Below are positions 2,419 to 18,191 of a DNA stretch of 33,850 nt, in pieces. The translations under genes were made by a program, and so were the position numbers. Below the pieces are notes generated by a model. It was not told the origin of the DNA and ran no database searches. It saw nothing but the letters and a program-made list of their open reading frames with translations. Source of the DNA: Streptacidiphilus neutrinimicus (GTDB taxonomy: Bacteria > Actinomycetota > Actinomycetes > Streptomycetales > Streptomycetaceae); the NCBI RefSeq assembly GCF_000787815.1, contig NZ_BBPO01000025.1, positions 1 through 33,850 on the forward strand. The letters run 5' to 3'. Position 1 is the first letter of the stretch, and each line of letters begins with the position of its first letter.

Positions 2419-2430
2419 TCATCCAGCGCG

Positions 2431-2506
2431 TTCACGCGAGCCGTCCGCGTGAATGAAGCCGAGGCCGCCCCTGTCCTGCGGCTCCCGAACCGGGAGCCGC
2501 AGGACA
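2431..2506 (+). terminator. Two consecutive hairpins behind the propeller gene
   Basis: Thirteen bases after the stop codon there is an 8-bp stem TTCACGCG/CGCGTGAA (2431-2438 with 2446-2453). It is followed by a perfect 16-bp stem TGTCCTGCGGCTCCCG (2472-2487), loop AAC and its complement at 2491-2506. Neither has a U-tract, which is usual for high-GC actinomycete terminators. It may act in both directions, because the next gene on the right is on the minus strand. Confidence 0.75.
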
Positions 2507-2657
2507 CGCGTGTGTGCGGCGTCCAGCACGGTGCTCGGAGCCGCGGACGCAACCGAAGGGCACGTCGCAGTCGGAACCACTTGGCCCCCGCAAAGGAGCT
2601 GGGAAAGCAGCCTGGGAATCGCGGTGTCGAGCCCTGCTGGGGCGTGGGCGTCCCCGA

Positions 2658-2993: not shown

Positions 2994-3159
2994 TGAAACT
3001 TTGGTGAACCTCGAATGACGTGTGTGGGCGTTTCGCGGTTCGGGCAGCGGTGACGACGACGAATCGCCCGCCCCGCCCCGCCCGGACGGCGTCGGCGGCC
3101 GCGACAGCGTCGCGACCGGCGGCCGTGGAGGCTGACGCGGCTGGCGGCGGATGGCGCAG

Positions 3160-4143
3160 TCACGTGACGGGGGTGGTGCGAAGGACGAGCTTGCCGCGGG
3201 TGCGGCCGTTCTCGCCGTGCGCGTGGGCCTGGGCCGCCTGCTCCAGCGGGAAGACCTCCTCCACCTCGATCGCGACCTCGCCCGCGTCGATCAGCTCCGC
3301 GATCCGGGTGAGCGCGGGGCCGTCGGGCTCGACCAGGAACGGGGTGACGCGGACGCCCATGGCTGATGCGGTGTCGGCTAGTTCGGGGGAGACGCCAGCG
3401 GGGACGGCCACCAGCAGGCCGTCCGGTCGCAGGACGGCCAGGGAGCGCAGGGCGGTCTTGTCGTGGGTGTCGCCGACCAGGTCGACGACGACGTCGACGG
3501 CGCGTGCGACGTCCTCGAAGCGGACGGCGGTGTAGTCGATCACCTCGTCGGCGCCGAGCTCCTTGAGCCATGCGTGGCGACCCGCACTGGCCGTGGCGAC
3601 GACGTGCGCGCCCAGGTGCTTGGCGAACTGGACCGCCAGGTGCCCCACGCCGCCCGCGGCGGCGTGGACCAGCACCCGCTGTCCGGCCCGGACGTCGGCG
3701 GTGTCCACCAGCGCCTGCCACGCGGTGAGCGCCGCGAGCGGAACCGCTGCGGCGTGATCGTGATCGATCGTCGCCGGCTTGCGGGCGAACTGGCGGGCGG
3801 GCGCGGTGACGTACTCGGCATAGCCGCCCGCCGCACGCGGGAACCAGGGCATGCCGTAGACCTCGTCGCCCACCGAGAGGGTGGTGACGCCGAAGCCGAC
3901 CGCCTCGACCACGCCGGAGACGTCCCAGCCCAGGACGAACGGGGGCTGTCCGAGCACCCCGGCCATGCCGCTGCCCGCCCTGGTCTTCCAGTCCACCGGG
4001 TTCACCCCGGCGGCGTGGACGCGCACCAGCACCTCGGTCGGCAGCGGCTCGGGCCGCGGCACCTCCCGGACCCGGAGCACCTCCGGACCTCCGAACGCGT
4101 CCTGGACCACCGCGCGCATCGTCTTCTGCTTCTGTGCGGACAT
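3160..4143 (-). CDS. NADP-dependent quinone-oxidoreductase-type enzyme (MDR superfamily)
   Basis: A 327-residue protein of the medium-chain dehydrogenase/reductase superfamily, quinone-oxidoreductase branch. The N-terminal GroES-like domain (about 9-130) has the typical AAGVNPVDWKTRAG and GWDVSGVVEAVG motifs. The Rossmann domain carries the glycine-rich AAAGGVGHLAVQFAK (161-175) and ends with GKLVLR. Zinc-binding cysteines of alcohol dehydrogenases are absent, which agrees with the zinc-free QOR group. Such enzymes reduce quinones or enones with NADPH in the cytoplasm. The start ATG 4143 has AGGGA-like sequence upstream. ATG at codon 9 (MRAVVQ) is an alternative start. It is transcribed divergently from an HxlR regulator that probably controls it. 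Confidence 0.85.
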   Translation of the reverse strand: MSAQKQKTMRAVVQDAFGGPEVLRVREVPRPEPLPTEVLVRVHAAGVNPVDWKTRAGSGMAGVLGQPPFVLGWDVSGVVEAVGFGVTTLSVGDEVYGMPWFPRAAGGYAEYVTAPARQFARKPATIDHDHAAAVPLAALTAWQALVDTADVRAGQRVLVHAAAGGVGHLAVQFAKHLGAHVVATASAGRHAWLKELGADEVIDYTAVRFEDVARAVDVVVDLVGDTHDKTALRSLAVLRPDGLLVAVPAGVSPELADTASAMGVRVTPFLVEPDGPALTRIAELIDAGEVAIEVEEVFPLEQAAQAHAHGENGRTRGKLVLRTTPVT

Positions 4144-4224
4144 GGCTCATCCCTCGCCGTCGCATGGTGCGGAGGGCCCTTCTCCGGCCTCCGCGCTGAC
4201 GGGAATGAAGCTACGGGCGAGGGC

Positions 4225-4248
4225 GTAGTTACCCGCAAGGGGAACTAC
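4225..4248. promoter_or_regulatory. Candidate HxlR operator between the divergent oxidoreductase and regulator genes
   Basis: The arms GTAGTTACCC (4225-4234) and GGGGAACTAC (4239-4248) form a 10-bp inverted repeat with one mismatch, separated by GCAA. It lies in the 141-bp divergent promoter region, in a locally AT-richer patch. HxlR-family dimers typically bind such GTA...TAC type palindromes in the shared promoter of their own gene and a redox enzyme gene. Confidence 0.55.
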
Positions 4249-4284
4249 TTCCCTATGGGAAGCATCCAGGTGAGGAGCACATCC

Positions 4285-4656
4285 ATGGCGACCAGCTGCC
4301 CCAGCGGCCAACACGCGCACCACGACGTCTACGCCGCGCAGTGCCCCTGCCGGGCCCTGCTCGACCTGCTGGCCAACAAGTGGTCCGCCTTGGCCATCGG
4401 CGCCCTGGAGGACGGCCCGCAGCGCTTCGGCGAACTCCAGCGCAGGCTTCAGGGCGTCAGCCCCAAGGTGCTCACCCAGACCCTGCGCCGACTGGAGGAC
4501 TTCGGCCTCCTCGACCGCACGGTCTACCCGGCGGTGCCGCTCCACGTCGAGTACGCGCTCACCGCGCTGGGCAAGAGCGCCGCCGTCCCGCTCAACCTGC
4601 TGCGCACCTGGGTGGAGGAGAACATCGACAGTACGACGGGCCCGGCCGGGGCCTGA
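4285..4656 (+). CDS. HxlR-family transcriptional regulator
   Basis: A 123-residue winged-helix protein. The family signature is clear: CPCRALLDLLANKW near residue 20, then LTQTLRRLEDFGLLDR as recognition and wing region, and YALTALGKSA towards the C-terminus. Three cysteines (5, 20 and 22) are present. The Cys near position 20 matches the conserved N-terminal cysteine that HxlR/YodB-type regulators use to sense quinones, diamide or aldehydes. The start ATG 4285 is chosen because GAGGAG at 4272-4277 precedes it. The frame stays open far upstream, but that part lies antisense to the oxidoreductase gene. It is divergent from the oxidoreductase, suggesting a local redox or electrophile stress switch. 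Confidence 0.88.
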   Translation: MATSCPSGQHAHHDVYAAQCPCRALLDLLANKWSALAIGALEDGPQRFGELQRRLQGVSPKVLTQTLRRLEDFGLLDRTVYPAVPLHVEYALTALGKSAAVPLNLLRTWVEENIDSTTGPAGA

Positions 4657-4666
4657 CGCCCGGCGC

Positions 4667-4870
4667 TCAGGGCGACGTGCCGTCGAGGGAGGAGCGGGTG
4701 GCGCAGTGATCGGCGCCGTCGGTGAGGCCGTCGCGAACGAGCATCAGCACCTGCGTCAGCTGCGCGCGCCGGCCGGCCTCCCCGGCTGGTCGCCGCGGGG
4801 CCCGAGTCGCCGCCGTCGCCGCGGGCACCGGAGTTGCCTGCTCCAGAGGCCCGCCGAGGCAACCGGGGGC
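4667..4870 (-). pseudogene. Possible remnant of a regulator gene C-terminus
   Basis: A minus-strand frame ending with TGA at 4667-4669 reads RRAQLTQVLMLVRDGLTDGAD and then a short tail. This looks like the last helix of a TetR-type regulator, with coding-like third-position GC in the last 40 codons. Further upstream the frame turns into Ala/Pro/Gly-rich sequence and runs into the strong hairpin at 4889-4928, with no start codon or DNA-binding domain. It may be a decayed gene end or chance. Confidence 0.2.
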
Positions 4871-4888
4871 CCCTGGCCCGGCAGCGCG

Positions 4889-4928
4889 CCCCGCCCGGCC
4901 CGGCCGCTGAAGGCCGGGCCGGGCGGGG
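4889..4928 (-). terminator. Strong rho-independent-like hairpin behind the first GH87 gene
   Basis: A perfect 17-bp stem: CCCCGCCCGGCCCGGCC at 4889-4905 pairs with 4912-4928 around the 6-base loop GCTGAA. It lies 8 bases beyond the stop codon of the minus-strand GH87 gene and has no U-tract. Confidence 0.8.
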
Positions 4929-4936
4929 TGGCGGGG

Positions 4937-7909
4937 TCAGAAGCCGCTGTCGCCGGGGCCGCGGTTGACGGTGTAGCCGCCGGGGTTGTTGAGGCCGCCG
5001 GATGCGGCGCCGGTGACGGTGACGTAGTTCGCGGTCATGCTGCCGGTGACATTGGAGATGTCGATGCCGTAGGTGCCGGCGCCGGTGATCGTCAGGTGGT
5101 CGAGGGTGAGGTTGCTGATCTGCTTGCCGTAGCTGAGCAGAACCCCTTGATAGGTGGCGCGGGTGACGGTGTTGTTCGTGATGGTCACGGGCTGGGTGAT
5201 GTCGGTGGTGCTGGCGTAGATCCACAGGGCGCCGAGCGAAGAGCCCCAGTTGGAGTTGTACGACCCTGCCCGGACCAGAGCGTTGCCGCTGACCGTTGTC
5301 GGTCCGGTGAAGCCGCCGCCGAAGGCGGTGCTGACGGTGATGCCCGAGCCGAAGGCGACGGTGTCGGAAACGAGGTTGTCGGAGACGGCGTTGTTGCCGC
5401 CGCCGTAGACGCCGATGCCGTTGGCCTGGATCGGGCTGCTGACGGTGTCGTTGCTCAGTGAGCAGCCGGTGACGTTTCCGCCCTCGGTGTCGAGGGCCAG
5501 TTCGTCGTCGCCGGTGTTGCGGACCTCGGTCTGGTCCACCCGTGTGCCGGTGCTGCCGCCGTGGACGTGGATGCCGTCCGCGAAGACGTCGCGCACCCGG
5601 GTGTCCACCACGTGCAGGCCGTTGCCGGGGGCGGCCCAGATGCCGACCTTGGTGTGCTCGATCCACACGTCGTCGATGAGCGATCCGGAGGCGAAGGTCC
5701 CCTCGATGCCGGCGGCGCCGGAGTCGTTGTTGCGGAAGGTCTGGTCGCCGGTGATGCTCAGGTCCGCGACCTGGTTGGTGCCGCCGGTGGCGAAGAGGCC
5801 GCCGGCGCCGTTGGGGGCCGTGGACTGGATCGTGGTGTACCACTCGCCGGCGCCGCGCAGGGCGACGTTGGCGAAGTTGATCCGGCCCGAGATCAGGTAG
5901 GTGCCGGGCGGGAACCACAAGCCGGTTCCGCTGCCGGTCAGCGCGCTGAGTGCGTTGTTGAGGGCACTGGTGTCGTCGGCGCCGCTGTTGGGGGTGACGC
6001 CGTAGTTGGTGACGGAGGTGTAGCCGGTGGCCGGCATGGTGAATGCGGGGTCGACCTGCTCCGCGTCCAGGACGTCGACGGTGTAGGAGGCGGCAGAGTC
6101 GGCGGCGTCCTTCTGGAGCTTGAGGACGGTGCCCGCGGGCCAGTTGCCGATCAGTGCGCGCGTCTCGTCGTAGAAGTGGTGCGCGACGCCGCTGCTCGGG
6201 GAGTGGGTGTCGTAGTAGCCGCCGCCGTAGAGCCAGGAGTACTGGCTGGTCAGGCTGAGGTCCTGCAGCTTGGCGCCGTTGGCGTAGAGCGCGAGGGGGG
6301 CGGTCGCGGTCGAGCCGTCGGAGTTGTCGGGGATGGAGTAGCGCAGCACGACGGCGTTGGCGGGCTCGGTCAGCGTGAACTGGACGTACTGTCCGGTGCT
6401 GGTGAGCTGCACGGCCTGACGGCCCGTCGCCTCGGCCTGCAGGCTCGGGTAGCTGGTGCTGTAGGGCAGCACGGTGCCGTTGGTCTGGGCGGAGGAGGCG
6501 GCGTACTCGGTGTAGGGCACGGTCGCGCCCTGGGTGGCGAGCGCGACGCCGCCGGTGAGGGCGACGCTGTTGATCGCGATGTTGCCGCTGTCGCCCGGGT
6601 CGGTGTGGTAGCCGATCAGGTTCAGGCCCGAACGGAGCGTCACGTTCTGGGTGGAGCTGAGCCATCCGCTGCCTGCGGGCAGGCTGATCCGGCCGCTGCG
6701 CACGCCGTTGAGGTAGAGCGAGACGGTCTGCGCCGTGCCGGTGGAGTTGGCGTAGGCGAGGGCGAGCGGGTAGCTGCCCGCGCTGGGCACGTCCGTGGTG
6801 AAGTCGGCGACGGCGCCGGTCGCGGCGAACCCGGTCAGGTAGCCGCTGCCGGTGTATCCGGCCAGGGAGGTCGCGAGCGCCGGCCCGCCGGTCGCGAACG
6901 CGGCGTCAGCCTGGTAGGTCTGCGCGTTCCCGCCACCGCCGCTGCTGTTCGTCGGAGTGGGGCTGGGCGAGGGGCTCCCGGACGCCGTGCCGACCGTGAT
7001 GTCGTCGAGGTTGACGTTCCCGGTGTCGGTCGAGTCGAACTTGTACCCGATGGTGTCGCTGCCGGAGGTGAGGGTCAGCGTGTCGGTCTGGGTGGTCCAG
7101 GTGTTCCAGTCGGCGGTCGCGGCGAGCGAGTCCTGCTGGACCTTGGTGCCGTTGACGTAGACGGAGAGCGTCTTGGCGGAGCCGTTGCCGTTGGCGTAGC
7201 GCAGGGTCACCGGCGTCGGGCCGGTCGCTGCGGCGGTGACGGTGAAGACGGTGTCTGCGGTGCCCTTGTCCGTGTCGGTGTAGCCGGCGACGAAGCCCGT
7301 GCCGGTGTAGCCGGTGTGGTCGGAGGCGACCACGGCCCCGCCCGACAGGGCGGCGTTCTCCGCCTCGTACTGGCCCGGCGGGGGCGGCGGGACGGCGTCG
7401 ACGCTGATGTTGTCGAGGTTGACGTTGCCGCTGTCGGTGGAGTCGAACTTGTAGGCGATGGTGTCGCTGCCGGAGGTGAGGCTCACCGGCGTGGCGACCG
7501 TGCCCCAGGTGTTCCAGTCGGCGGTACCGGGCAGGGAGATCTGCCCGGTCCTGCCGCCGTTGACGTACACGGACAACGTCATCGTCGACCCGGTGCCGTT
7601 GGCGTAGCGCAGGGTGGACGTGTACGCCCCGGAGGTGGCGGCGGTGACGGTGAAGACGGTGTCTGCGGCGCCCTTGTCCGTGTCGGTGTAGCCGGCGACG
7701 AAGCCGGTGCCGGTGTAGCCGGTGTGGTCGGAGGCGACCACGGCCCCACCCGACAGGGCGGCGTTCTCCGCCTCGTAGACGGTGGCGGCCGCATGCGCCG
7801 CCGGGGCGGCGCTCCAGGCGACGGCGAGGGTCAGCAGCAGGGCGATCACGCTGAGCACGGCGAGGGGCAGCGCGCGGGCGCGCGAAACCCCCGGGGGAGG
7901 GACGGACAT
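4937..7909 (-). CDS. Secreted GH87-type alpha-1,3-glucanase/mycodextranase with three N-terminal CBM35-like modules
   Basis: A 990-residue secreted enzyme. The start ATG 7909 is chosen because AGGAG precedes it by a few bases and a signal peptide follows at once (residues 1-41, ending AHAAA). Residues 44-171 and 181-306 are two almost identical CBM35/CBM6-like modules beginning YEAENA and ending GNVNLD. After an S/P/T/G linker a diverged third module spans 332-451. Residues about 460-620 form a beta-sandwich shared with the second GH87 enzyme of this locus. Residues about 625-990 are a right-handed beta-helix that starts like Pectate_lyase_3 (NYGVTPNSGADDTSALNNAL). Asp778 in FADGI and Asp801-Asp802 in NTGDDELAL are spaced 23 residues. 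As I recall, this matches the three catalytic aspartates of Paenibacillus GH87 alpha-1,3-glucanase. GH87 enzymes hydrolyse alpha-1,3-glucan or nigeran, and the exact linkage cannot be read from sequence. It is the first gene of the glucan locus, on the opposite strand to the transport operon. Confidence 0.8.
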   Translation of the reverse strand: MSVPPPGVSRARALPLAVLSVIALLLTLAVAWSAAPAAHAAATVYEAENAALSGGAVVASDHTGYTGTGFVAGYTDTDKGAADTVFTVTAATSGAYTSTLRYANGTGSTMTLSVYVNGGRTGQISLPGTADWNTWGTVATPVSLTSGSDTIAYKFDSTDSGNVNLDNISVDAVPPPPPGQYEAENAALSGGAVVASDHTGYTGTGFVAGYTDTDKGTADTVFTVTAAATGPTPVTLRYANGNGSAKTLSVYVNGTKVQQDSLAATADWNTWTTQTDTLTLTSGSDTIGYKFDSTDTGNVNLDDITVGTASGSPSPSPTPTNSSGGGGNAQTYQADAAFATGGPALATSLAGYTGSGYLTGFAATGAVADFTTDVPSAGSYPLALAYANSTGTAQTVSLYLNGVRSGRISLPAGSGWLSSTQNVTLRSGLNLIGYHTDPGDSGNIAINSVALTGGVALATQGATVPYTEYAASSAQTNGTVLPYSTSYPSLQAEATGRQAVQLTSTGQYVQFTLTEPANAVVLRYSIPDNSDGSTATAPLALYANGAKLQDLSLTSQYSWLYGGGYYDTHSPSSGVAHHFYDETRALIGNWPAGTVLKLQKDAADSAASYTVDVLDAEQVDPAFTMPATGYTSVTNYGVTPNSGADDTSALNNALSALTGSGTGLWFPPGTYLISGRINFANVALRGAGEWYTTIQSTAPNGAGGLFATGGTNQVADLSITGDQTFRNNDSGAAGIEGTFASGSLIDDVWIEHTKVGIWAAPGNGLHVVDTRVRDVFADGIHVHGGSTGTRVDQTEVRNTGDDELALDTEGGNVTGCSLSNDTVSSPIQANGIGVYGGGNNAVSDNLVSDTVAFGSGITVSTAFGGGFTGPTTVSGNALVRAGSYNSNWGSSLGALWIYASTTDITQPVTITNNTVTRATYQGVLLSYGKQISNLTLDHLTITGAGTYGIDISNVTGSMTANYVTVTGAASGGLNNPGGYTVNRGPGDSGF
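7233..7781 (-). repeat. Recent intragenic duplication of the CBM35 module
   Basis: The segments 7233-7373 and 7641-7781, offset by exactly 408 bp (136 codons), differ by only a few bases. They encode the N-terminal halves of the two CBM35 modules. The remaining halves have diverged more, which points to duplication followed by partial gene conversion. Confidence 0.8.
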
Positions 7910-8153
7910 GTCGCTCCTGACGGGTGGGGGGGAGGAGGTGACCGCACGGCACCGTAGCCCTGGGGCGGGGTGCGCACAATGAATCGCGCGCACGCCGCAA
8001 TTCAGGGACCGCCACTGCGTCCACCTGGCCGTCGCTGTTTGCGAGCCGGGCCCAGCAGGGCGTTTGGCCGCGTCGGGCGGTCAGGTGTCCGTGTACGACC
8101 TGAAAATAGTCAGCAGGGAAAGACGCCGCCTTGCTGAGGGATTTCCGCCCGTT

Positions 8154-9149
8154 CTAGACCGATGCGGCAAGGTGCGGCCCGGTCGATCCGCGCACCACCA
8201 GCTCCGGTTCGTGCAGCAGCCGCCGGGGGGTCGGTGCGTTGCCGTCGATCTGATTGACCAGCAGCTGCACCGCGGCGCGGGCCATGGCGTCGATCGGCTG
8301 ACGCAGCGTCGTCAGCGGCGGGTCGGTGTAGTTCATGAAAGCGGAGTCGTCGAAGCCGACGGCGGAGAAGTCACGGGGCACGTGCAGGCCGGCCCGGCGG
8401 GCCGCGCGGATCGCGCCGAGGGCGAGGATGTCGCTGCCGCACACCACCGCGGTCGCACCCGCGCGGATCAGGTCCGCAGCCGCGGCTTGGCCGCCCTCGA
8501 AGGAGAAGAGCGCATGGGCGACCAACTGGGCGGAGCCCAGGCCCCGGGCGGCGGCGAGGGTGCGGAACGTCTGCGCCTTGTGCGCGGACGGCGCGTGCTC
8601 GGGTGGGCCGACCAGCAGGCCGATACGGCGGTGGCCCAGCGCGTGCAGGTGCGTGAAGGCCTGTTCGACCGCGGCCGCGTCGTCCGTGGCGACCTGTGGG
8701 AAGCCGGGGTGGTCGACGGCGGCGTTCAGCAGCACGACCGGTACGCCGCGCTCCAGCAGTTGGCGGTGCTCCTCCGAACTGAGGCCCCCGCAGAACACGA
8801 CGCCGGACACCTGCTGGTCCAGCAGCATGGTCACGTACTCCGCCTCGGTCAGACCGCCTGCGGAGCGTGTGCACAGGACCGGGGTGAAGCCGAGCTGCAC
8901 CAGCGCGCCACCGACCGTTTCCGCCAGGGCGGGGAAGATGGGGTTCTGCAGCTCCGGCAGCACCAGGCCGACCAGTCGGGCGCGCACGCCCCGCAGTTGA
9001 GTGGGCCGCTCGTAGCCGAGGACGTCCAGTGCGGTCAGCACGGTCTGCCGGGTGGCGTCCGAGACCCCGGACCTGCCGTTGAGCACCCGGCTGACGGTGG
9101 CCTCGCTGACCCCCACCTTGCGTGCCACCTCGGCGAGTCTGCGCGTCAT
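8154..9149 (-). CDS. LacI-family repressor of the glucan locus, copy 1
   Basis: A 331-residue LacI/GalR-type regulator. The N-terminal helix-turn-helix LAEVARKVGVSEATVSRVLNG (5-25) and hinge (about 45-60, LDVLGYERPTQLRG) are canonical. The periplasmic-binding-protein-like effector domain follows, with GLVLPELQNPIFPALA and the C-terminal DDSAFMNYTDPPLTTLRQP typical of sugar-responsive members. It is about four-fifths identical to the LacI protein at 17115-18191 but lacks a 16-residue insertion present there. The ATG at 9149 has no recognisable Shine-Dalgarno sequence, so the transcript may be leaderless. It is divergent from the transporter operon (254 bp apart), the classical arrangement for local repression relieved by an imported oligosaccharide. 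A weak hairpin TCAGCA/TGCTGA at 8110-8137 lies behind its stop codon. Confidence 0.9.
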   Translation of the reverse strand: MTRRLAEVARKVGVSEATVSRVLNGRSGVSDATRQTVLTALDVLGYERPTQLRGVRARLVGLVLPELQNPIFPALAETVGGALVQLGFTPVLCTRSAGGLTEAEYVTMLLDQQVSGVVFCGGLSSEEHRQLLERGVPVVLLNAAVDHPGFPQVATDDAAAVEQAFTHLHALGHRRIGLLVGPPEHAPSAHKAQTFRTLAAARGLGSAQLVAHALFSFEGGQAAAADLIRAGATAVVCGSDILALGAIRAARRAGLHVPRDFSAVGFDDSAFMNYTDPPLTTLRQPIDAMARAAVQLLVNQIDGNAPTPRRLLHEPELVVRGSTGPHLAASV

Positions 9150-9234
9150 GCGGGCAGCGTGCCACAGCCGATGCCTGATTCTCTACAGCCGATGACGTCC
9201 GAACGACACTCACTTACGGCAGTACGTCCAGGTT

Positions 9235-9260
9235 TTGCGCATATCGGTTTCCCTGTTGCG
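9235..9260. promoter_or_regulatory. Candidate LacI operator region upstream of the transporter operon
   Basis: In the LacI/transporter divergent region TTGCG occurs at 9235-9239 and again at 9256-9260, 21 bp (two helical turns) apart. CATATC (9240-9245) and CCTGTTGCG (9252-9260) recur with almost the same spacing upstream of the second LacI gene (18258-18278). Conservation in both promoters suggests a shared binding site. No perfect palindrome is visible. Confidence 0.4.
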
Positions 9261-9402
9261 GGCGCTCTCACGCCGCCCGTAGCTTGTCCTGCACGCCGGG
9301 CCGAGACCGCCACCCAGCCCCCTGGGTGCGGCCCTGACCAGCCTCAACGCCCACCATCCATCGGGTGATCCCCGCACCCGTTCTCACCTCCAGGGACCGA
9401 AG

Positions 9403-10806
9403 ATGACCGGAACCAGAGCCGCAGGACCGCAGACCGCCACCAGCCTCCGCGCCGCCGCGGCCGTCGCCCTCGCGACCGGCCTCGCGCTCACCGCCACCGC
9501 CTGCGCGAGCTCCGGCGGCGCCGGCAGCGCCGACGCGAACGGCAAGGTGACCATCACCGTCGGTTGCATGCCGCCCACCACCCAGGCCGGGCCCCGCGCC
9601 AACTGGATCGCCGACGTCGCCGCGTTCGAGAAGCTCAACCCGAACATCACCGTCAAGGGCGACGACACCAACCCCTGCGACGACCCGGCCACCTTCAACG
9701 CCAAGCTGGCGAGCGGCAAGATGGACGACGTCTTCTACACCTACTTCACCGACGGAGCCAACGTCGTCGCCTCCGGCCAGGCCGCCGACATCCAGCGGTA
9801 CGCGAGCCAGATCCACGGCCTGTCGGACATCCAGCCCGCCCTGACGAACATCTACCGTCAGGGCGGCAGCACCTCCGGCGACCTCTACGGCATCCCGAAG
9901 GGCAACTACAGCCTCGGTCTGGTCTACAGCAAGACCCTCTTCCAGAAGGCCGGCCTGGACCCGAACAAGCCGCCGACCACCTGGGACGAGGTCGAGGCCG
10001 ACGCCATCGCCATCACCAAGCTGGGCGGCGGCGACGTCGGCTACGCCGACTACAGTGCCGCGAACACCGGTGGCTGGCACTTCACCGCCGAGCTCTACTC
10101 CCGCGGCGGCACCATGGTCACCCCCGACGGCAAGTCCGCGAACTTCGACGACGCCAACGGCCTGGCGGTGCTGCAGTTCCTGCACAAGCTGCGGTTCACT
10201 GACAACGTCATGGGCACCAAGCAGGGCCTGCAGTACAACGACCTGCTCCAGATGATGGCTTCGGGCAAGCTCGGCATGTACGTGGGCGACCCGGTCACCC
10301 TGACCACCATCCACGACCAGTACAACGTCCCCTACGACACCATGGCCGTCGGCCCGATGCCCGGCGAGCAGGCCACCCTGGTCGGCGGCGACGGCTACAT
10401 GTTCAACAAGAAGGACACCCCGGCCCAGATCCAGGCCGGCATCAAGTGGGTCAACTACGAGTTCCTCACCTCCGGCCAGGGCCTGAACTTCAACTACCCG
10501 CGCCGTGCCCAGCAGAAGGAGCCCGTCGGCCTGCCCGAGCCGGACCTGTGGACCGGCGCGACCGCCTCCGCCGACGCCGCCGCGATGGCCAAGTACGCCA
10601 ACCTGCCGGTGCAGAACTTCTCCGCCTACGTCGCCGCCCTGCCGACCATGAAGCTGCTGGTCGAGCCCCCGCAGGCACAGGCGCTCTACGCGCAGGGCGA
10701 CAAGGCCATGAACTCCGTGCTGACCGACCCGAACGCGGACCCGCAGAAGCTCCTGGACACCTTCAAGGCCGCCGCGAACACCATCCTGGCCAACGCCCAG
10801 CAGTAA
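9403..10806 (+). CDS. CUT1 sugar ABC transporter, substrate-binding lipoprotein
   Basis: A 467-residue extracellular solute-binding protein, family 1. A lipoprotein signal peptide ends at a lipobox-like LTATAC with Cys34 as the lipidation site. Mature features include TITVGCMPPTT, a D-V-F-Y-T-Y-F strand, YGIPKGNYSLGLVYSKTLFQKAGLDP (typical of maltose-type binding proteins, hinge and ligand region) and PTTWDEVEADA. The start ATG 9403 is preceded by AGGGA. It heads a co-directional operon: binding protein, two permeases, secreted GH87 enzyme, GH13 enzyme. The expected role is capture of glucan-derived oligosaccharides outside the membrane. Its ligand is inferred from the two neighbouring GH87 genes. 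After the stop codon a 10-bp palindrome CGTCCGGACG lies in the 31-bp gap before the permease. Confidence 0.92.
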   Translation: MTGTRAAGPQTATSLRAAAAVALATGLALTATACASSGGAGSADANGKVTITVGCMPPTTQAGPRANWIADVAAFEKLNPNITVKGDDTNPCDDPATFNAKLASGKMDDVFYTYFTDGANVVASGQAADIQRYASQIHGLSDIQPALTNIYRQGGSTSGDLYGIPKGNYSLGLVYSKTLFQKAGLDPNKPPTTWDEVEADAIAITKLGGGDVGYADYSAANTGGWHFTAELYSRGGTMVTPDGKSANFDDANGLAVLQFLHKLRFTDNVMGTKQGLQYNDLLQMMASGKLGMYVGDPVTLTTIHDQYNVPYDTMAVGPMPGEQATLVGGDGYMFNKKDTPAQIQAGIKWVNYEFLTSGQGLNFNYPRRAQQKEPVGLPEPDLWTGATASADAAAMAKYANLPVQNFSAYVAALPTMKLLVEPPQAQALYAQGDKAMNSVLTDPNADPQKLLDTFKAAANTILANAQQ

Positions 10807-10837
10807 CCGTCCGGACGAGACGAGAGCCCCACCCGAG

Positions 10838-11782
10838 ATGGCGACGATCAACCTGACCCGAGCGGTAGCCCGCGACCTGCGGGCCGCCGAACCCGCCCGG
10901 CGCGGCGGCCTGCGCCGCCGACTGCGGCGCAACGCCACCGCCTACCTGTTCCTGGCCGGCGCGATCCTCTGTTTCGCGGTGTTCTCCTGGTACCCCATGA
11001 TCCGCGAGGTGGTCATGAGCTTCCAGTACACCAACTTCGCGGGGGAGACCAAGTGGGTGGGGCTGCGCAACTACCAACGCGTCCTGCACGACCCGGACTT
11101 CTGGAGCGCCTGGCGCACCACCGGCCTGTTCACCCTGTTCGCCGTCGTCGTCGGCTACGCCGTGCCGTTCGCCCTCGCGGTCGTGCTGAACGAGATCCGG
11201 CACGCCCGGTCCTACTTCCGGCTGCTGGTCTACCTGCCCGTCATGATGCCTCCGGTGGCCGCCGCGTTCCTGTGGAAGTGGTTCTACACCCCGGACGACA
11301 CCGGCCTGTTCAACGCCGCCCTGCACGCCGTCGGCCTCCCGAGCGTGCAGTGGCTGCAGTCCTCGCACACCCTCGCCGTGCTCTGCCTGGTCCTCTTCTC
11401 CACCTGGATCAACATGGGCGGCACCGTGCTGGTCTACCTCGCCTCCCTCCAGGGCATCCCCGGCGAGCTCTACGAGGCCGCCGAACTCGACGGGGCCGGA
11501 CTGCTGCGCCGGGTCTGGCACGTGACGGTGCCGCAGACCCGGCTGATCCTCTCGATGATGCTGCTGCTCCAGATCGTCGGCACCATGCAGGTCTTCCTGG
11601 AGCCCTACGTCATCACCGGCTCCGCCAACGACACCACCAGCGTCGTCTACCTGATCTACCAGTACGCGTTCAACTACAACAACTACGGCAGCGGCGCCGC
11701 GCTCGGCGTGCTGCTGCTCCTCGTCCTGATCGCCTTCGCCGGCGGCTACCTGTGGCTGAGCCGCCGCGCCGAGCAGGAGTAG
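10838..11782 (+). CDS. CUT1 sugar ABC transporter permease, MalF-like
   Basis: A 314-residue integral membrane protein. A basic cytoplasmic N-terminus (to about residue 30) is followed by six hydrophobic segments. The first is AYLFLAGAILCFAVFSWYPM. The ABC-permease EAA loop is clear: Y212-EAAELDGAG-LLRRVWHVTVP, which contacts the ATPase. VVMSFQYTNF and KWVGLRNYQRVLHDP are typical of MalF/UgpA-type subunits of sugar importers. It lies 31 bp behind the binding-protein gene and 5 bp before the second permease, so it is surely co-transcribed. No ATPase gene is present in the operon. In streptomycetes a shared MsiK-type ATPase commonly serves such importers. Confidence 0.93.
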   Translation: MATINLTRAVARDLRAAEPARRGGLRRRLRRNATAYLFLAGAILCFAVFSWYPMIREVVMSFQYTNFAGETKWVGLRNYQRVLHDPDFWSAWRTTGLFTLFAVVVGYAVPFALAVVLNEIRHARSYFRLLVYLPVMMPPVAAAFLWKWFYTPDDTGLFNAALHAVGLPSVQWLQSSHTLAVLCLVLFSTWINMGGTVLVYLASLQGIPGELYEAAELDGAGLLRRVWHVTVPQTRLILSMMLLLQIVGTMQVFLEPYVITGSANDTTSVVYLIYQYAFNYNNYGSGAALGVLLLLVLIAFAGGYLWLSRRAEQE

Positions 11783-11787
11783 GCCCG

Positions 11788-12678
11788 ATGTCCGCTTCCG
11801 TCACCCCGACGCGTACCCTCATCTCCCAGGCCCAGCTGGCCCGCCCGTTCGGCCGGGCCGCCTACTGGACGGTGTTCTGGGTCCTGGTCGCGCTGTTCGC
11901 CCTCGCCTTCCTCTTCCCGCTGTACTGGATGGTCAGCGGTGGGCTGAAGACTCCTCAGCAGATCATCCAGACACCGCCCTCGCTGCTGCCGACCTCCCCG
12001 TCGGTCACGAACTACGCGACCGCCTGGCGCGACCTGGACCTGGGCCGGCTGATCTTGAACACCACCCTCTACGCCTTCGGCGCGCTGGCCTTCCAGCTGG
12101 TCTTCGACGTGGCCGCCGCCTACGCGCTGTCCAAGCTGCGACCGGTCTTCGGCAACGGTGTGCTCTTCGCGATGCTGGCGACGCTGATGATCCCGACGAC
12201 CGTCATCGTCCTCCCCGCCTACCTGACCGCCAACGACCTGCCGTTCACCCACTGGAGCCTGCTCAACACCCCCTGGGCGATCTGGCTGCCCTCCGTCGCC
12301 AACGCTTTCAACATCTTCCTGCTGAAGCGCTTCTTCGACTCCATCCCCACCGAGCTGTTGGCCGCCGCGGCGATCGACGGCGCAGGGCCGCTGCGCACCC
12401 TGTGGTCGGTCGTGCTGCCGATGTCCCGGCCGATCCTCGGCGTCGTCTCCATCTTCGCCGTGGTCGGAGTCTGGAAGGACTTCCTGTGGCCACTGCTGGT
12501 GCTCACCGACACCTCCGCGCAGACGGTCAACGTCGGGATCAACCAGCTCCACGTCGGCGTCCCCGAGAACGTCTTCGTCGCCGCGCTCGCCATCGCCAGC
12601 GTGCCGACCATCGTGTTCTTCCTTTTCTTCCAGCGCAACATCATGGCCGGACTCACCGCCGGCGCGATGAAGGGCTGA
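11788..12678 (+). CDS. CUT1 sugar ABC transporter permease, MalG-like
   Basis: A 296-residue integral membrane protein. The start ATG 11788 is 5 bp after the previous stop, with AGGAG at 11775-11779 inside the preceding coding end. It has the MalG-type N-terminal segment (ALFALAFLFPLYWMVSGGLK), the PxxWxNYxxxW-like region (TSPSVTNYATAWRD) and NTTLYAFGALAFQLVFDV. The EAA loop reads LLAAAAIDGAGPLRTLWSVVLP with the Glu replaced. The C-terminus QRNIMAGLTAGAMKG is characteristic of MalG-like subunits. It pairs with the upstream MalF-like permease to form the membrane channel. The following GH87 gene starts 32 bp downstream in the same operon. Confidence 0.93.
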   Translation: MSASVTPTRTLISQAQLARPFGRAAYWTVFWVLVALFALAFLFPLYWMVSGGLKTPQQIIQTPPSLLPTSPSVTNYATAWRDLDLGRLILNTTLYAFGALAFQLVFDVAAAYALSKLRPVFGNGVLFAMLATLMIPTTVIVLPAYLTANDLPFTHWSLLNTPWAIWLPSVANAFNIFLLKRFFDSIPTELLAAAAIDGAGPLRTLWSVVLPMSRPILGVVSIFAVVGVWKDFLWPLLVLTDTSAQTVNVGINQLHVGVPENVFVAALAIASVPTIVFFLFFQRNIMAGLTAGAMKG

Positions 12679-12710
12679 CACCCCGCCTCCCACTCCCCGG
12701 AGCCGCATCC

Positions 12711-15335
12711 ATGACCCCCCGCAGCGCCGCGCGTCCGCGGCGCAGAACCGACCTGCCCGCGCTGGCCGCGCTCCTGCTGGCCGCCCCGCTGATCGCGCTG
12801 CCCACCGGCCCCGCCCACGCCGACACGCCGATTCCTCGCCAACCGGCGGGTGCTGACGTCTCGTTCACCGAGGACAACGCCGCCACCAGTCCGCACGCCC
12901 GTACCAACGGCGCCGTGCTCGGTCCTGACTACCGCTACGGCAGCCTCGCCAGCGAGGCGACGGGCCGCACCGCCGTCCAACTCGTCGGCCGGGGACGGTA
13001 TGTGAGCTTCACCCTCACCCGCCCGGCCAACGCTGTCGACTTCCACTACGCCCTGCCGGACTCGCTCCACGGCGGCGGCATCAACGCCCCGCTGGAGCTC
13101 TACGTCGACGGCAGGGCCGAGGCCGCCCTCACGTTGACCTCCCAGTTCAGCTGGCTCTACGGCACCTACCCGTTCAGCAACAACCCGTCGGTGGGCAAGC
13201 CCGACGGCCAGGTGCCGCACGACTTCTACAACGACGTCCGCTACCGCTTCGGTCGCACGCTGCCCGCCGGGACGGTCGTCAAGCTCCAGGTCGACGCGGG
13301 CGACAACGCGCCCTGGTACGTCGTCAACACCGCCGACTTCGAACAGGCGCCAGCCCCGGCCGCCAAGCCCGACGGCTACCTCGACGCCACCGCCTACGGC
13401 GTCGACGCCACCGGCGCGACCGACACCACCGCCGCACTCCAGCACGCCGTCGACGCCGCCTCCGCCGCCGGCCGCGGCCTCTACCTGCCGGCCGGCACCT
13501 ACACCCTCAGCGCCCCGCTGAACGTCGACCAGGTGACCATCGCCGGAGCGGGGGAGTGGTACACCGTCCTGACCGGCCACAACGTCTCCTTCGCGGGAAA
13601 ACAGAACCCGCCCAGCAGCCACGTGGACATCTCCGACCTGGCGATCTTCGGCAACGTCGACGTCCGCGACGACAGCAACAGCGCCGACACCGGCTTCAAC
13701 GGCGGCTTCAGCGACTCGAGGATCTCCCACGTGTGGATCCAGAACGAGAAGGTAGGCGCCTGGATCATCGGACCCAGCACGAACCTGACGCTCGACCACC
13801 TGCGCATCCAGGACACCACCGCCGACGGGGTCAACCTCAACGCCGCCGACGGCCCCGTCACCCACGCCCTGATCACCCAGAACTTCCTGCGCAACACCCA
13901 GGACGACGGCCTCGCCCTGTGGTCGGAGAACTACGGCGACACCGCGGACGCCCTCGTCCGCAACACCGTCGACTCACCCGGCCTGGCCAACAACATCGGC
14001 GTCTACGGCGCGGGCGCAGACGACGTCATCGCCGGCAACCTGCTCCAGGACACCGTCACCCGAGGCGGCGGCATCGGCATCGGGCAGCGTTTCGGCTCCG
14101 TCCCGATGAGCGGACCGCTGGCCGTCACCGGCAACACCCTGGTGCGCACCGGCCAGTGGGACCCGGGCTGGGACTACGGCGTCGGCGCGATCTGGTTCGA
14201 CCCGCAGCAGGGTTCCATGACCGCACCCGTCGAGATCCGCGGCAACGACATCGTCGACAGCCCGTACTCCGCGTTCATGTTCCAGAACTCGGCCGCCTAC
14301 ACCGGCGCCGCCGTGACCACCCCGCCGAGCGGCGGCAACGCCGTCACCAACGTGACGATCGACGACAACCGCGTCAGCGGTGTCGGCTCCTACGTCTTCC
14401 AGGACCAGGCACCAGGCGCGGTGACCGTCTCCGGCCTGCACGCGGACGGTGTCGGGATCGCGGGCGTCTTCAGTTGCGGCGCGGGCTTCGCGCTGAAGGA
14501 CGCGGGCGGCGACTCCGGCTGGAAGCACGCCCCGGTCTGCGGAATGCCCGCCCGCTCGGCGCTGTGGGCCTACCCCGGCAGCACCACCTTCGAGGCCGCC
14601 ACCACCGGGCAGGCCACCCCGGCGCAGAAGGTCGTCGTGGCGAACACCGGCGCGACCTCCGCCACGCTCGGCCAGGTCACAGCGAGCCCCGGGTTCTCCG
14701 TCGCGCCGGACCCGGCTCACCCCTGCGGCGCCACGCTCGACGCGGCCGACCCGACCGACCCGGCCACCTGGTGCGTCCTCGACGTCACCTTCACCCCGCA
14801 GCACGACGGCCTCACCCGGGGCGCACTCACGCTCCAGGCCACCGGCGGCGGAAAGCCCACCGCCGTCCAGTTGGTCGGCAGTACCGACCCGCTCGGGGGC
14901 GACGGCGGCGTCGCCCCGCCCAGCAACCTCGCCCTCGGCGCCACCCTCACCGCCAGCAGCGCTCTGCCGGGCTTCCCCGCCACCAACGCGAACGACGACA
15001 ACAGCGGCTCCTACTGGGAGAGCCAGGACGGCTCCGCCTTCCCGCAGTCCCTCACCGCCGACCTCGGCACCGCCCAGCAGGAGCGCAGCGTCGTGCTGAC
15101 CCTGCCGCCCAACTGGGGAGCCCGCACCCAGACGCTCGCCGTCCTCGGCTCCACGGACGGCAGCACCTGGACCACACTCGTACCCGCCGCCGACCACGTC
15201 TTCGACCCGGCGAGCGCCGACACCGTCACGCTGACGCTGCCCGTCGGCACGAACGAGCGCTATCTCCAGGTCGTCGTCGCCGGCAACACCGGCTGGCCCG
15301 CCGCCCAGCTGTCCGAGTTTGAGATCTTCGACTGA
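12711..15335 (+). CDS. Second secreted GH87-type glucanase with C-terminal Ig-like and discoidin (F5/8C) domains
   Basis: An 874-residue secreted enzyme. The start ATG 12711 follows GGAG at 12699-12702. The signal peptide covers residues 1-37 (cleavage after AHA). Residues about 50-212 are the same beta-sandwich as in the first GH87 enzyme (SEATGRTAVQL, SFTLTRPANAV, TSQFSWLYG, LPAGTVVKLQVDA). Residues about 222-600 form the right-handed beta-helix. Asp372 (TADGVN) and Asp398-Asp399 (NTQDDGLALW) correspond to the GH87 catalytic aspartates, here 26 rather than 23 residues apart. Then comes a choice-of-anchor-D-like Ig domain (about 615-725) and a discoidin/CBM32-like domain (about 736-874, SNLALGATLTASS...YWES...SLTADLGT...ERYLQVVV). 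It has no CBM35 modules. Being in the transport operon, it is likely co-induced with uptake. The different accessory domains suggest a different target or position on the polymer. Confidence 0.8.
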   Translation: MTPRSAARPRRRTDLPALAALLLAAPLIALPTGPAHADTPIPRQPAGADVSFTEDNAATSPHARTNGAVLGPDYRYGSLASEATGRTAVQLVGRGRYVSFTLTRPANAVDFHYALPDSLHGGGINAPLELYVDGRAEAALTLTSQFSWLYGTYPFSNNPSVGKPDGQVPHDFYNDVRYRFGRTLPAGTVVKLQVDAGDNAPWYVVNTADFEQAPAPAAKPDGYLDATAYGVDATGATDTTAALQHAVDAASAAGRGLYLPAGTYTLSAPLNVDQVTIAGAGEWYTVLTGHNVSFAGKQNPPSSHVDISDLAIFGNVDVRDDSNSADTGFNGGFSDSRISHVWIQNEKVGAWIIGPSTNLTLDHLRIQDTTADGVNLNAADGPVTHALITQNFLRNTQDDGLALWSENYGDTADALVRNTVDSPGLANNIGVYGAGADDVIAGNLLQDTVTRGGGIGIGQRFGSVPMSGPLAVTGNTLVRTGQWDPGWDYGVGAIWFDPQQGSMTAPVEIRGNDIVDSPYSAFMFQNSAAYTGAAVTTPPSGGNAVTNVTIDDNRVSGVGSYVFQDQAPGAVTVSGLHADGVGIAGVFSCGAGFALKDAGGDSGWKHAPVCGMPARSALWAYPGSTTFEAATTGQATPAQKVVVANTGATSATLGQVTASPGFSVAPDPAHPCGATLDAADPTDPATWCVLDVTFTPQHDGLTRGALTLQATGGGKPTAVQLVGSTDPLGGDGGVAPPSNLALGATLTASSALPGFPATNANDDNSGSYWESQDGSAFPQSLTADLGTAQQERSVVLTLPPNWGARTQTLAVLGSTDGSTWTTLVPAADHVFDPASADTVTLTLPVGTNERYLQVVVAGNTGWPAAQLSEFEIFD

Positions 15336-15354
15336 CCCTCCCGTGATCCGGTGT

Positions 15355-15386
15355 CCGGGAGCGCGGACCTGACCCCGCGCTCCCGG
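15355..15386 (+). terminator. Intra-operon hairpin between the GH87 and GH13 genes
   Basis: A perfect 12-bp stem CCGGGAGCGCGG (15355-15366) pairs with 15375-15386 around an 8-base loop, 19 bp after the GH87 stop. The GH13 gene starts 39 bp later with its own strong ribosome site, so the hairpin may attenuate transcription or protect the upstream mRNA. Confidence 0.6.
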
Positions 15387-15425
15387 GCGCCCACCCATCG
15401 ACAACTGCGCAAGGAGCACCCATCC

Positions 15426-17090
15426 ATGACGGTCCGTACACGCACATCTGACGAGGCTGCTCACGGGGCCGCGCCCTGGTGGCAGGACGCGGTGATCTAC
15501 CAGGTCTACGTCCGCTCCTTCGCCGACGCCGACGGCGACGGCATCGGCGACCTCGCCGGCGTGCGAGCCAAGCTGCCCTACCTGGCAGACCTGGGCGTCG
15601 ACGCACTCTGGTTCAACCCCTGGTACGCCTCCCCGCTCGCGGACGGCGGCTACGACGTGGCCGACTACCGCCGCATCGACCCCGCCTTCGGCACCCTCGA
15701 GGACGCCGAACAGCTCATTGCCGAAGCTCACGCGCTCGGCCTGCGGATCATCGTCGACGTCGTGCCCAACCACGTCTCCGACCGTCACGCCTGGTTCGAG
15801 GAAGCGCGGGCGTCGCAGCCCGGCTCGGCCGCCCGCGAGCGGTTCTGGTTCCGTCCCGGGCGGGGCGCGGACGGCGAACTGCCCCCGAATGACTGGACGT
15901 CGGAGTTCGGCGGCCCCGCCTGGACCCGCCTGCCCGACGGCGAGTGGTACCTCCACTTGTTCGCCGCCGAACAGCCCGACCTCAACTGGAACAACCCCGA
16001 GGTCGCCGAAGAACACGAGGCGGTGCTCCGCTTCTGGTTCGACCGCGGCGTCGACGGCGTCCGCATCGACTCGGCCACCATGCCCGCCAAGGACCCCGCA
16101 CTGCCCGCCTTCGGCCCCCACCACACCAAGGCGACCCCGCCGCAGCCGCACCCCTTCGTCGACCGCGACGAGGTGCACGAGATCTACCGGCACTGGCGCA
16201 AGGTCGCCGACTCCTACCCGGAGCCCAAGGCGCTCATCGGTGAGGTCTGGCTGGCCGACCCCGAACGGCTCGCCGCCTACCTGCGCGCCGACGAGATGCA
16301 CTGTGCCTTCAACTTCGACTACCTCAACTGCCCCTGGGACGCGGAGCGCCTGCGCGGCGTCATCGACGGCACCCTGGCGGCCCACGCGCCCGTCGGCGCG
16401 CCGGCGACCTGGGTGCTGTCCAACCACGATGTCACGCGTCACGTGACCCGCTACGGCCGCGCCGACAGCGCCATGGGGCGCAGCCCAGCCCAGCACGGTG
16501 CGCCCACCGACCTCGCCCTCGGCACCCGCCGCGCCCGCGCCGCCCTGCTGCTCAACCTCGCCCTGCCCGGCTCCTGCTACCTCTACCAGGGAGAGGAGCT
16601 CGGCCTGTGGGAGGTCACCGACCTCCCGGACGCCGCCCGCCAGGACCCGTTCTTCTTCCGCAGTGCCGGTGCCGACCTGGGCAGGGACGGCTGCCGCGTC
16701 CCGCTGCCCTGGTCCGGAGTGGCCCCGCCGTTCGGCTTCAGCCCCACCGAGTCCACGGCGGCCCCCTGGCTGCCGCAGCCGCAGGCGTGGGCGTCACTGG
16801 CAGCCGAGGTCCAACAGGACGCCGCGGGCTCGATGCTGACTCTCTACCGCACCGCCCTGCGCACCCGCCGGGCCGAACCGGCGTTGCACACGCCGGACTT
16901 CGCCTGGACGCAAGCCACCGGGCCCGAGGTTCTCGACTTCCGGCGCGGGGACTCGTTCCGCTGCCTGGTCAACCTCTCGGACGCCGACGTCCCGGTGCCG
17001 CAGGCGCACGCGCTCGTGCTGGCCAGCGGCCCTCTGGGCGCGGACGGCGCCCTCGTGCCGCCGGACACGACGGTGTGGCTCCACGGCTGA
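15426..17090 (+). CDS. Cytoplasmic GH13 alpha-glucosidase-type enzyme
   Basis: A 554-residue protein without signal peptide. The start ATG 15426 is chosen because AAGGAG (15411-15416) precedes it, and the GH13 domain begins within 20 residues (WWQDAVIYQVYVRSFADADGDGIGDL). The conserved GH13 regions are present: DVVPNH (111-116), GVRIDSA with nucleophile Asp215, IGEVW with acid/base Glu273, and SNHDVTR with Asp335. The sequence around the nucleophile (TMPAKDPALP) resembles actinobacterial alpha-glucosidases of subfamily GH13_30. These cleave alpha-linked glucose from the non-reducing end of short oligosaccharides in the cytoplasm. As the last gene of the operon it would turn imported glucan fragments (nigero- or malto-oligosaccharides) into glucose. 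The exact linkage preference is not readable from sequence. Confidence 0.92.
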   Translation: MTVRTRTSDEAAHGAAPWWQDAVIYQVYVRSFADADGDGIGDLAGVRAKLPYLADLGVDALWFNPWYASPLADGGYDVADYRRIDPAFGTLEDAEQLIAEAHALGLRIIVDVVPNHVSDRHAWFEEARASQPGSAARERFWFRPGRGADGELPPNDWTSEFGGPAWTRLPDGEWYLHLFAAEQPDLNWNNPEVAEEHEAVLRFWFDRGVDGVRIDSATMPAKDPALPAFGPHHTKATPPQPHPFVDRDEVHEIYRHWRKVADSYPEPKALIGEVWLADPERLAAYLRADEMHCAFNFDYLNCPWDAERLRGVIDGTLAAHAPVGAPATWVLSNHDVTRHVTRYGRADSAMGRSPAQHGAPTDLALGTRRARAALLLNLALPGSCYLYQGEELGLWEVTDLPDAARQDPFFFRSAGADLGRDGCRVPLPWSGVAPPFGFSPTESTAAPWLPQPQAWASLAAEVQQDAAGSMLTLYRTALRTRRAEPALHTPDFAWTQATGPEVLDFRRGDSFRCLVNLSDADVPVPQAHALVLASGPLGADGALVPPDTTVWLHG

Positions 17091-17097
17091 GCCCGGG

Positions 17098-17130
17098 CGT
17101 GGCCCGGGACGGTGTCAGACCCGGGCCACG
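17098..17130. terminator. Bidirectional terminator between the convergent GH13 and LacI genes
   Basis: A perfect 11-bp stem CGTGGCCCGGG (17098-17108) pairs with CCCGGGCCACG (17120-17130) around an 11-base loop. The right arm overlaps the last codons of the minus-strand LacI gene, so one hairpin can serve both convergent transcripts. Confidence 0.75.
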
Positions 17131-18191
17131 AGGGCACGGTCGAGCGGTCGACCGCTTGCCGGCGGCGCCGGGGCGGTGGAGCCGCGGACGACCAGTTCGG
17201 GCTCGTGAAGCAGCTCCTTCGGCGTCGGTGCACCACCGTCGATCTGATTGACCAGCAGCTGCACCGCGGCGCGGGCCATGGCGTCGATCGGCTGCCGCAG
17301 TGTCGTCAGCGGCGGGTCGGTGTAGTTCATGAAGGCCGAGTCGTCGTAGCCGATGATGGAGACGTCCTGCGGCACGTCCAGCCCCCGACGCCGGGCCGCC
17401 CGCACCGCGCCCAGGGCCAGGATGTCGCTCCCGCAGATCAGCGCGGTCGCGCCGGCGGCCAGCAGCTCGCCCGCAGCGGCCTGACCGCCCTCGAAGGAGA
17501 AGAGGGCGTGCCCCACCCGCCCCCGGTCGTCCGTTCCGGTCCGTGCGCACAGCCGCGCGAACGCCTGCGCCTTACGCCGTGACGGCATGTGCTCGGCGGG
17601 CCCGACCAGTAGGCCGATCCTGCGGTGCCCGAGCGCCCACACATGCCCGAAAGCCTGCTCGACCGCGGCCTGGTCATCGGTCGACACCTGCGGGAAACCG
17701 AGCTTGGCACCGTGCAGGGGGTCCGTCACCAGGGCGGGCGGCAGGGCCGCGAAGTCCACCGCGGCGTTGAGCAGCACGACGGGGACTCCACGGCCGAGCA
17801 GCTGCCCGTACTCGTCCACCGTCAGGCCACCACAGAACACCACCCCGGAGACCTGCTGGTCCAGCAGCATCGTGACGTACTCCGCCTCGGTCAGTCCGCC
17901 CGCGGTCCGGGTGCAGAGCACCGGCGTGAAGCCGAGCTGCACCAGCGCCCCACCCACGCCTTCGGCCAGCGCCGGGAAAATGGGGTTCTGCAGCTCCGGA
18001 ACGACGAGCCCGACCAGCCGAGCCCGCACACCCCGAAGCTGAGTGGGGCGCTCGTAGCCGAGAACGTCGACCGCGGTCAGCACGGCCTGCCGGGTGACGT
18101 CCGAAACCCCCGGCCGGCCGTTGAGCACCCGGCTCACTGTGGCCTCGCTGACCCCCACCTTCTTGGCTACCTCTGCAAGTCTGCGCGTCAT
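17115..18191 (-). CDS. LacI-family repressor of the glucan locus, copy 2
   Basis: A 358-residue LacI-type regulator and close paralogue of the protein at 8154-9149. The DNA-binding domain differs by only a few residues (LAEVAKKVGVSEATVSRVLNG), so both copies probably recognise the same operators. The effector domain carries a 16-residue insertion after LLNAAVD (residues about 147-163, rich in A/L/P), and the C-terminus is extended by about ten residues. The start ATG 18191 gives the family-standard MTRRL. An in-frame ATG at 18200 is an alternative. Neither has a Shine-Dalgarno sequence. It is convergent with the GH13 gene. It has its own upstream region with several TTGCA-like half-sites, so autoregulation is likely. 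Confidence 0.9.
   Translation of the reverse strand: MTRRLAEVAKKVGVSEATVSRVLNGRPGVSDVTRQAVLTAVDVLGYERPTQLRGVRARLVGLVVPELQNPIFPALAEGVGGALVQLGFTPVLCTRTAGGLTEAEYVTMLLDQQVSGVVFCGGLTVDEYGQLLGRGVPVVLLNAAVDFAALPPALVTDPLHGAKLGFPQVSTDDQAAVEQAFGHVWALGHRRIGLLVGPAEHMPSRRKAQAFARLCARTGTDDRGRVGHALFSFEGGQAAAGELLAAGATALICGSDILALGAVRAARRRGLDVPQDVSIIGYDDSAFMNYTDPPLTTLRQPIDAMARAAVQLLVNQIDGGAPTPKELLHEPELVVRGSTAPAPPASGRPLDRALVARV

Follow-up and report, generated by a model that had tools for sequence, protein, structure and literature searches.

A LacI-flanked gene cluster of Streptacidiphilus neutrinimicus with two GH87 enzymes, a CUT1 importer and a GH13 enzyme points to a dedicated system for alpha-1,3-glucan utilization

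Many fungi contain alpha-1,3-glucan in their walls, and the polymer also forms part of dental plaque; its use by bacteria is poorly understood. Among the described systems, which are cited here from the accessible passages of the respective papers, a cluster of Lachnoclostridium phytofermentans combines a GH87 enzyme with a GH65 nigerose phosphorylase, GH31_u1, an ATP-binding cassette (ABC) transporter and LacI (PMC9061262). For Prevotella melaninogenica, a polysaccharide utilization locus (PUL) with GH87, GH97 and GH99 was predicted in a paper of 2026, which also stated that, to its authors' knowledge, a GH87 PUL had never been characterized experimentally (PMC13421300). In Arthrobacter globiformis, the genes cmmA-G form a cluster for cyclic maltosyl-maltose (PMC7676653). 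Soil Streptomyces have been isolated on mutan and alternan, and the structure 7C7D is that of a mutanase (alpha-1,3-glucanase) from Streptomyces thermodiastaticus HF3-3 (PMC11475409). Here we describe a gene cluster of Streptacidiphilus neutrinimicus in which two GH87 glycoside hydrolases are encoded together with an ABC importer of the CUT1 type, a GH13 enzyme and two LacI regulators. The whole stretch analyzed, in the following called the window, comprises bases 1-33850 of contig 160 from a host genome of 8.4 Mb in 184 contigs. The genus Streptacidiphilus consists of actinobacteria of acid soils. An actinobacterial cluster of this kind was not described in the titles and abstracts of the open PMC literature among the matches listed, a scope that leaves subscription papers aside.

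We interpret this cluster as a dedicated, LacI-controlled utilization system for alpha-1,3-linked glucan, be it the alpha-1,3-glucan of fungal walls or nigeran, a related polymer, and assign this reading a probability of roughly 0.8. The surprising element of the cluster is its GH13 partner, in which the system most likely ends, and not in the GH65 or GH31 enzymes of the clostridial precedent. The principal features are the following:

4937..7909, minus strand: GH87a, predicted secreted enzyme of the alpha-1,3-glucanase type (Pfam and phmmer; signal peptide by eye)
8154..9149, minus strand: LacI1, LacI-family repressor (Pfam LacI and Peripla_BP_3)
9150..9402: divergent regulatory region between LacI1 and the solute-binding protein gene (TTGCG-containing blocks in the alignment)
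9403..10806, plus strand: solute-binding lipoprotein (SBP) of the CUT1 ABC importer (Pfam SBP_bac_1, 1.9e-24; lipobox LTATAC by eye)
10838..11782, plus strand: MalF-type permease (Pfam BPD_transp_1)
11788..12678, plus strand: MalG-type permease (Pfam BPD_transp_1)
12711..15335, plus strand: GH87b, predicted secreted GH87 enzyme with a C-terminal F5/8 type C domain (Pfam and phmmer; start and signal peptide by eye)
15426..17090, plus strand: GH13 alpha-glucosidase (Pfam Alpha-amylase, PF00128, 1.6e-95; no signal peptide by eye)
17115..18191, minus strand: LacI2, LacI-family repressor and paralogue of LacI1 (Pfam LacI helix-turn-helix and periplasmic-binding-type ligand domain)

The plus-strand genes from SBP to GH13 are separated by gaps of 31, 5, 32 and 90 bases, as in a single operon. 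The GH87b gene starts only 32 bp past the permease gene and therefore probably lies within the importer operon. Its mechanical open reading frame (ORF) opens at 12402, and we set the start at 12711 because a signal-peptide-like stretch begins there, as judged by eye. All elements named in a preliminary description of the window, that is the two GH87 enzymes, the SBP and permeases of a CUT1 importer, the GH13 enzyme and both LacI regulators, were recovered as ORFs with the corresponding Pfam matches. The same description had called the locus complete, which goes too far: the importer has its SBP and two permeases, and Pfam revealed no ABC ATPase in those cluster proteins that were scanned. Elsewhere in the host genome (G000), contig 131 carries a gene for a UgpC/MsiK-like ATPase (G000:C131; 472.9 bits, cut-off 432). 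Streptomyces sugar importers usually share one ATPase. We also noticed a second cluster of the type LacI-SBP-permease-GH13-GH87 in the host (L085, G000:C183:60000-79900, at 986-9461), whose SBP is 41% identical to that of the window.

Both beta-helix proteins belong to family GH87, as the preliminary description had proposed from their aspartate patterns. GH87a matched the Pfam domains CatAgl_D1 (E 3.6e-49, 167.3 bits, cut-off 27) and CatAgl_D2 (E 2.1e-21, 76.7 bits), and GH87b matched CatAgl_D1 (E 1.7e-36, 126.1 bits, same cut-off of 27), with no CatAgl_D2 listed for it in the Pfam scan. The nearest solved structure found with phmmer was in both cases the alpha-1,3-glucanase 7c7d (E 7.8e-78 for GH87a and 2.9e-97 for GH87b). 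We took the catalytic positions from Agl-FH1 chains with single Asp-to-Ala exchanges (6k0p, 6k0q and 6k0s, compared with 6k0m), aligning 6k0s to GH87a and 6k0p and 6k0q to GH87b and then checking the corresponding columns where each enzyme is aligned with the wild type. All three mutated positions are Asp in both enzymes. They correspond to Asp778, Asp801 and Asp802 in GH87a, conserved in all 15 aligned rows, and to Asp372, Asp398 and Asp399 in GH87b, conserved in all 13, the window's own row included each time. The two catalytic units share 38% identity. In GH87a, the catalytic unit is C-terminal and preceded by tandem CBM35-like carbohydrate-binding modules (CBM35/CBM6), which matched best those of the GH31 alpha-glucosidase 5x7o and second a cycloalternan-forming enzyme. 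Judged by family and active site, GH87a and GH87b would act on alpha-1,3-glucan or nigeran.

The host genome gave five CatAgl_D1 matches, and because two of these are adjacent pieces on contig 183, we count four GH87 genes: GH87a, GH87b, one in the second cluster on contig 183 and a solitary one on contig 134. Outside the host, a contig labelled as an Acidobacteria metagenome-assembled genome (L151, JAJYIU010000046.1) encodes a GH87b relative of 53% identity, for which transfer or mis-binning is possible. Matches to GH87b were also present in 11 of 72,556 plasmid records, all of them below 60% identity and mostly on large Streptomyces replicons.

To describe the distribution of the arrangement, we searched the SBP in 394 genomes of the host's family, host included, and obtained a match at E 1e-40 in 232. 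Sixty loci were sampled from the matches listed, namely the 38 ranking best below the host and the 22 at the bottom. Up to 20 kb around each were searched with the proteins of the window and further GH87 seeds. Every one of the 60 loci contained LacI, the SBP, the two permeases and GH13, and 46 also contained GH87 (33 of the 38 best and 13 of the 22 last rows). The gene order of the window recurs in Streptacidiphilus jiangxiensis (L144). Eleven of the 14 loci lacking GH87 come from genomes included in our GH87 search, and all 11 of these genomes have a GH87 match; the other three (G325, G229 and G238) belong to genomes outside that search. In 16 loci with GH87-less cassettes inspected by eye, for which the gene calls are imprecise, the neighbors look unrelated and no replacement endo-enzyme was recognized.

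At the genome level, 123 of 199 family genomes besides the host have both GH87 and the SBP, 67 have neither, 7 have the SBP only and 2 (G157 and G189, with GH87 matches at E ~6e-4) have GH87 only. Fisher's test yields p 4e-42, without correction for genome relatedness, and because the genomes are related this is not a clean probability. As a control we used GH71, an unrelated alpha-1,3-glucanase family: the SBP occurs in 10 of 15 GH71 genomes, near the base rate of 130 in 199. GH71 was present in 3 of the 7 SBP-only genomes vs 12 of the 192 others (Fisher p 0.01), and we considered whether it substitutes for GH87 there. Two of those three genomes (G004 and G020) have weak SBP matches and five GH71 genomes lack both GH87 and the SBP, so this substitution is only a hint.

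The co-occurrence and the conserved neighborhoods support the earlier suggestion of a dedicated alpha-glucan system not directed at starch. Its description as a distinct type was overstated: the combination of GH87 with this importer is widespread in the host's family and not unique to the window, and GH87, ABC transporter and LacI genes have a precedent in the available account of L. phytofermentans (PMC9061262).

The cluster's inner enzyme carries the GH13 nucleophile Asp215, the acid/base Glu273 and the third acid Asp335 in columns that do not vary among the 92 aligned rows. Directly after the nucleophile follows Ser216. The solved enzyme 8yif, 54% identical, has Val at this position, as have the host's GH13 paralogues, which lie outside GH87 clusters on contigs 157 and 159. 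One paper on the enzyme behind 8yie and 8yif names just the ligands bound to it. The residue after the GH13 nucleophile helps to set the preference for alpha-1,4 or alpha-1,6 linkages. Skipping matches with a stop in the aligned translation, we found Ser in 84 of 86 GH13 rows taken from the window and the retrieved loci, among which some genes occur twice. The two others, L098 and L126 (genomes G093 and G092), are variant clusters with GH87 between the permeases and a Val-type GH13, and these exceptions could reveal which GH13 type fits which substrate. A phylogenetic tree of 85 rows united all 78 rows with Ser in one group with a support of 97, obtained by a quick method that gave a long-branch warning. 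This tree took 85 of the 92 rows, omitting names that start with L14, which are mostly duplicates plus L140 and L146.

We extended this comparison to the phylum by searching 396 genomes, host included, for GH13 and GH87. A locus had been fetched for 29 of the 48 other genomes matching GH13, and we read the best GH13 locus of each; these 29 include all 10 with GH87 above the cut-off and exclude G551, whose GH87 match falls below it. Ser followed the nucleophile in 10 of 10 genomes with GH87 vs 1 of 19 without, and the remaining 18 GH87-less genomes have Val (17) or Ala (1). The same holds within family f1 (8 of 8 with GH87 vs 0 of 3 without). In family f8, Ser was found in 2 of 2 genomes with GH87 (G611 and G653) vs 1 of 2 without (Ser in G727, Val in G701); the importer of the GH13 clusters in f8 is more distant, and G611 and G653 carry their GH87 at another place in the genome. 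Ser after the nucleophile may mark a preference for alpha-1,3 linkages, and the GH13 enzyme of the window is a candidate for activity on nigerose.

LacI1 and LacI2 share 78% identity and have almost the same DNA-binding domain; LacI2 has an insertion of 16 residues relative to LacI1. In the divergent region at 9150..9402, aligning the window with seven of its close relatives shows conserved TTGCG-containing blocks. From 76 regions upstream of SBP genes we derived a palindromic motif, CGCAAgATcTTGCG. At a score of at least 15 it yielded 61 sites in 76 loci (1.47 Mb) vs ~6 in shuffles, the motif being scored on the regions on which it was trained. Upstream of the SBP lie 57 of the 61 sites, that is, in 57 of the 75 fetched loci having an SBP, which likewise served for training. 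The palindrome is missing in the window and in its close relatives, despite a nearly identical recognition helix. Because of the shared training regions and the missing site in the window, we claim no operator for it.

Several points weigh against the reading of the cluster as a system for alpha-1,3-linked glucan. The co-occurrence statistic is inflated because the genomes are related, and 7 of 199 genomes have an SBP without GH87, among them G143, which lacks GH71 as well. The palindrome stays below the threshold upstream of the window's SBP and is missing in 18 of the 75 fetched loci. In the host's family, G029 has the importer cassette with a Ser-type GH13 and a GH71 gene (G029:C9:69367-70413) and no GH87 match. 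The f8 genome G727 (L196) has a Ser-type GH13 and an importer without a GH87 or GH71 match in the genome; it possibly scavenges the oligosaccharides of others, or is a counterexample. The closest solved relatives of the GH13 enzyme are labelled only alpha-glucosidases, the host has one unlinked GH65 gene (G000:C181, 439.9 bits) that could serve nigerose, and a published GH87 tree holds a cluster of actinomycete mycodextranases (PMC10696023), which makes nigeran a possible substrate.

These last observations bear on an alternative that we consider possible, though rather unlikely, in which the GH87 enzymes are mycodextranases, the GH13 enzyme takes alpha-1,4 bonds and nigerose is split by another enzyme, for example the unlinked GH65. 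Two activities are known for GH87, one of them that of a mycodextranase (PMC13421300), and the GH13 enzyme does resemble ordinary alpha-glucosidases. However, both GH87 enzymes are nearest to the alpha-1,3-glucanase 7c7d in a comparison that covered solved structures, with mycodextranase sequences outside it, and the cluster's GH13 has Ser after the nucleophile where its paralogues have Val.

We regard it as very unlikely that a general importer for maltodextrins or alpha-glucosides with its GH13, that is a starch locus of the agl or mal type, lies beside GH87 by chance. The SBP, permease and GH13 families serve maltodextrin uptake too, and for 14 of the 60 sampled cassettes the retrieved stretch contained no GH87, but the importer co-occurs with GH87 at the genome level and the Ser-type GH13 enzymes form one group in the tree. 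Moreover, the host has a separate ABC, GH13 and LacI locus (G000:C159), with a Val-type GH13 and transport proteins of only 28-33% similarity. Lysis of living fungi as the main role of the GH87 enzymes, with feeding secondary, is improbable: a GH87 enzyme hydrolyses the alpha-1,3-glucan of the fungal wall (PMC10696023) and both enzymes have additional modules and the appearance of secreted proteins, but GH87b lies within the importer gene run (gaps 5-90 bp) and the uptake genes are conserved together with GH87, so nutrition is favored over antagonism.

For the alpha-1,3-glucan system we propose the following course. Secreted GH87a and GH87b would cut the polymer into short nigero-oligosaccharides, probably kept on the substrate by the CBM35 and F5/8 type C modules. 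From gene neighborhood and co-occurrence, the SBP is expected to capture these oligosaccharides, and the two permeases may import them with an ATPase shared with other sugar importers, for which the gene on contig 131 is a candidate. The cytoplasmic GH13 enzyme would then free glucose, as its neighborhood and co-occurrence suggest, and the unlinked GH65 could take part. One or both LacI proteins may repress the two divergent transcription units until an imported sugar binds. A wider proposal, which we put forward tentatively and at slightly less than even odds, is that the Ser-marked GH13 clade of actinobacteria represents alpha-1,3-glucosidases for nigero-oligosaccharides that co-evolve with GH87 and a dedicated LacI-controlled importer, replace GH65 and GH31, and define a family-wide system for fungal alpha-1,3-glucan in the Streptomycetaceae. 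The cluster supplies a defined importer, regulator and inner enzyme, together with a prediction on GH13 linkage choice that concerns a single residue.

Two further genes of the window lie apart from the cluster. At 733-2418 (plus strand), a secreted-looking protein of 561 amino acids has repeats of the kind GRIGYTQS...NWSEVNAYWN and a BNR-repeat match below the cut-off. At 24557-26149 (plus strand), a secreted-looking protein of 530 amino acids, without a Pfam match and with a marginal NCBIfam match to a family of the hyaluronate-lyase type, is a candidate beta-helix enzyme as judged by eye.

Of the known systems, that of L. phytofermentans also has its GH87 gene grouped with an ABC transporter, LacI regulators and enzymes for the nigero-oligosaccharides, but its partner enzymes are a phosphorylase of GH65 and an alpha-1,3-glucosidase of GH31, whereas the window has a GH13 enzyme, two GH87 enzymes and no ATPase found in the cluster (PMC9061262). 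The alpha-1,3-glucanase of S. thermodiastaticus HF3-3 (7C7D), which has the closest solved structure to both GH87 enzymes, is known here as a single enzyme. The cmmA-G cluster, likewise actinobacterial, resembles the window in pairing an ABC importer with a GH13 alpha-glucosidase inside the cell; it differs in its outer enzyme, a GH13, and its starch-derived substrate, and GH87 is not mentioned in the accessible passages of that paper (PMC7676653). The PUL of P. melaninogenica is, like the window, a predicted GH87-based locus for a mutan-type glucan, but as described in the accessible part of the source it is a Bacteroidota PUL with other partner enzymes, whereas the window encodes a CUT1 ABC system (PMC13421300).

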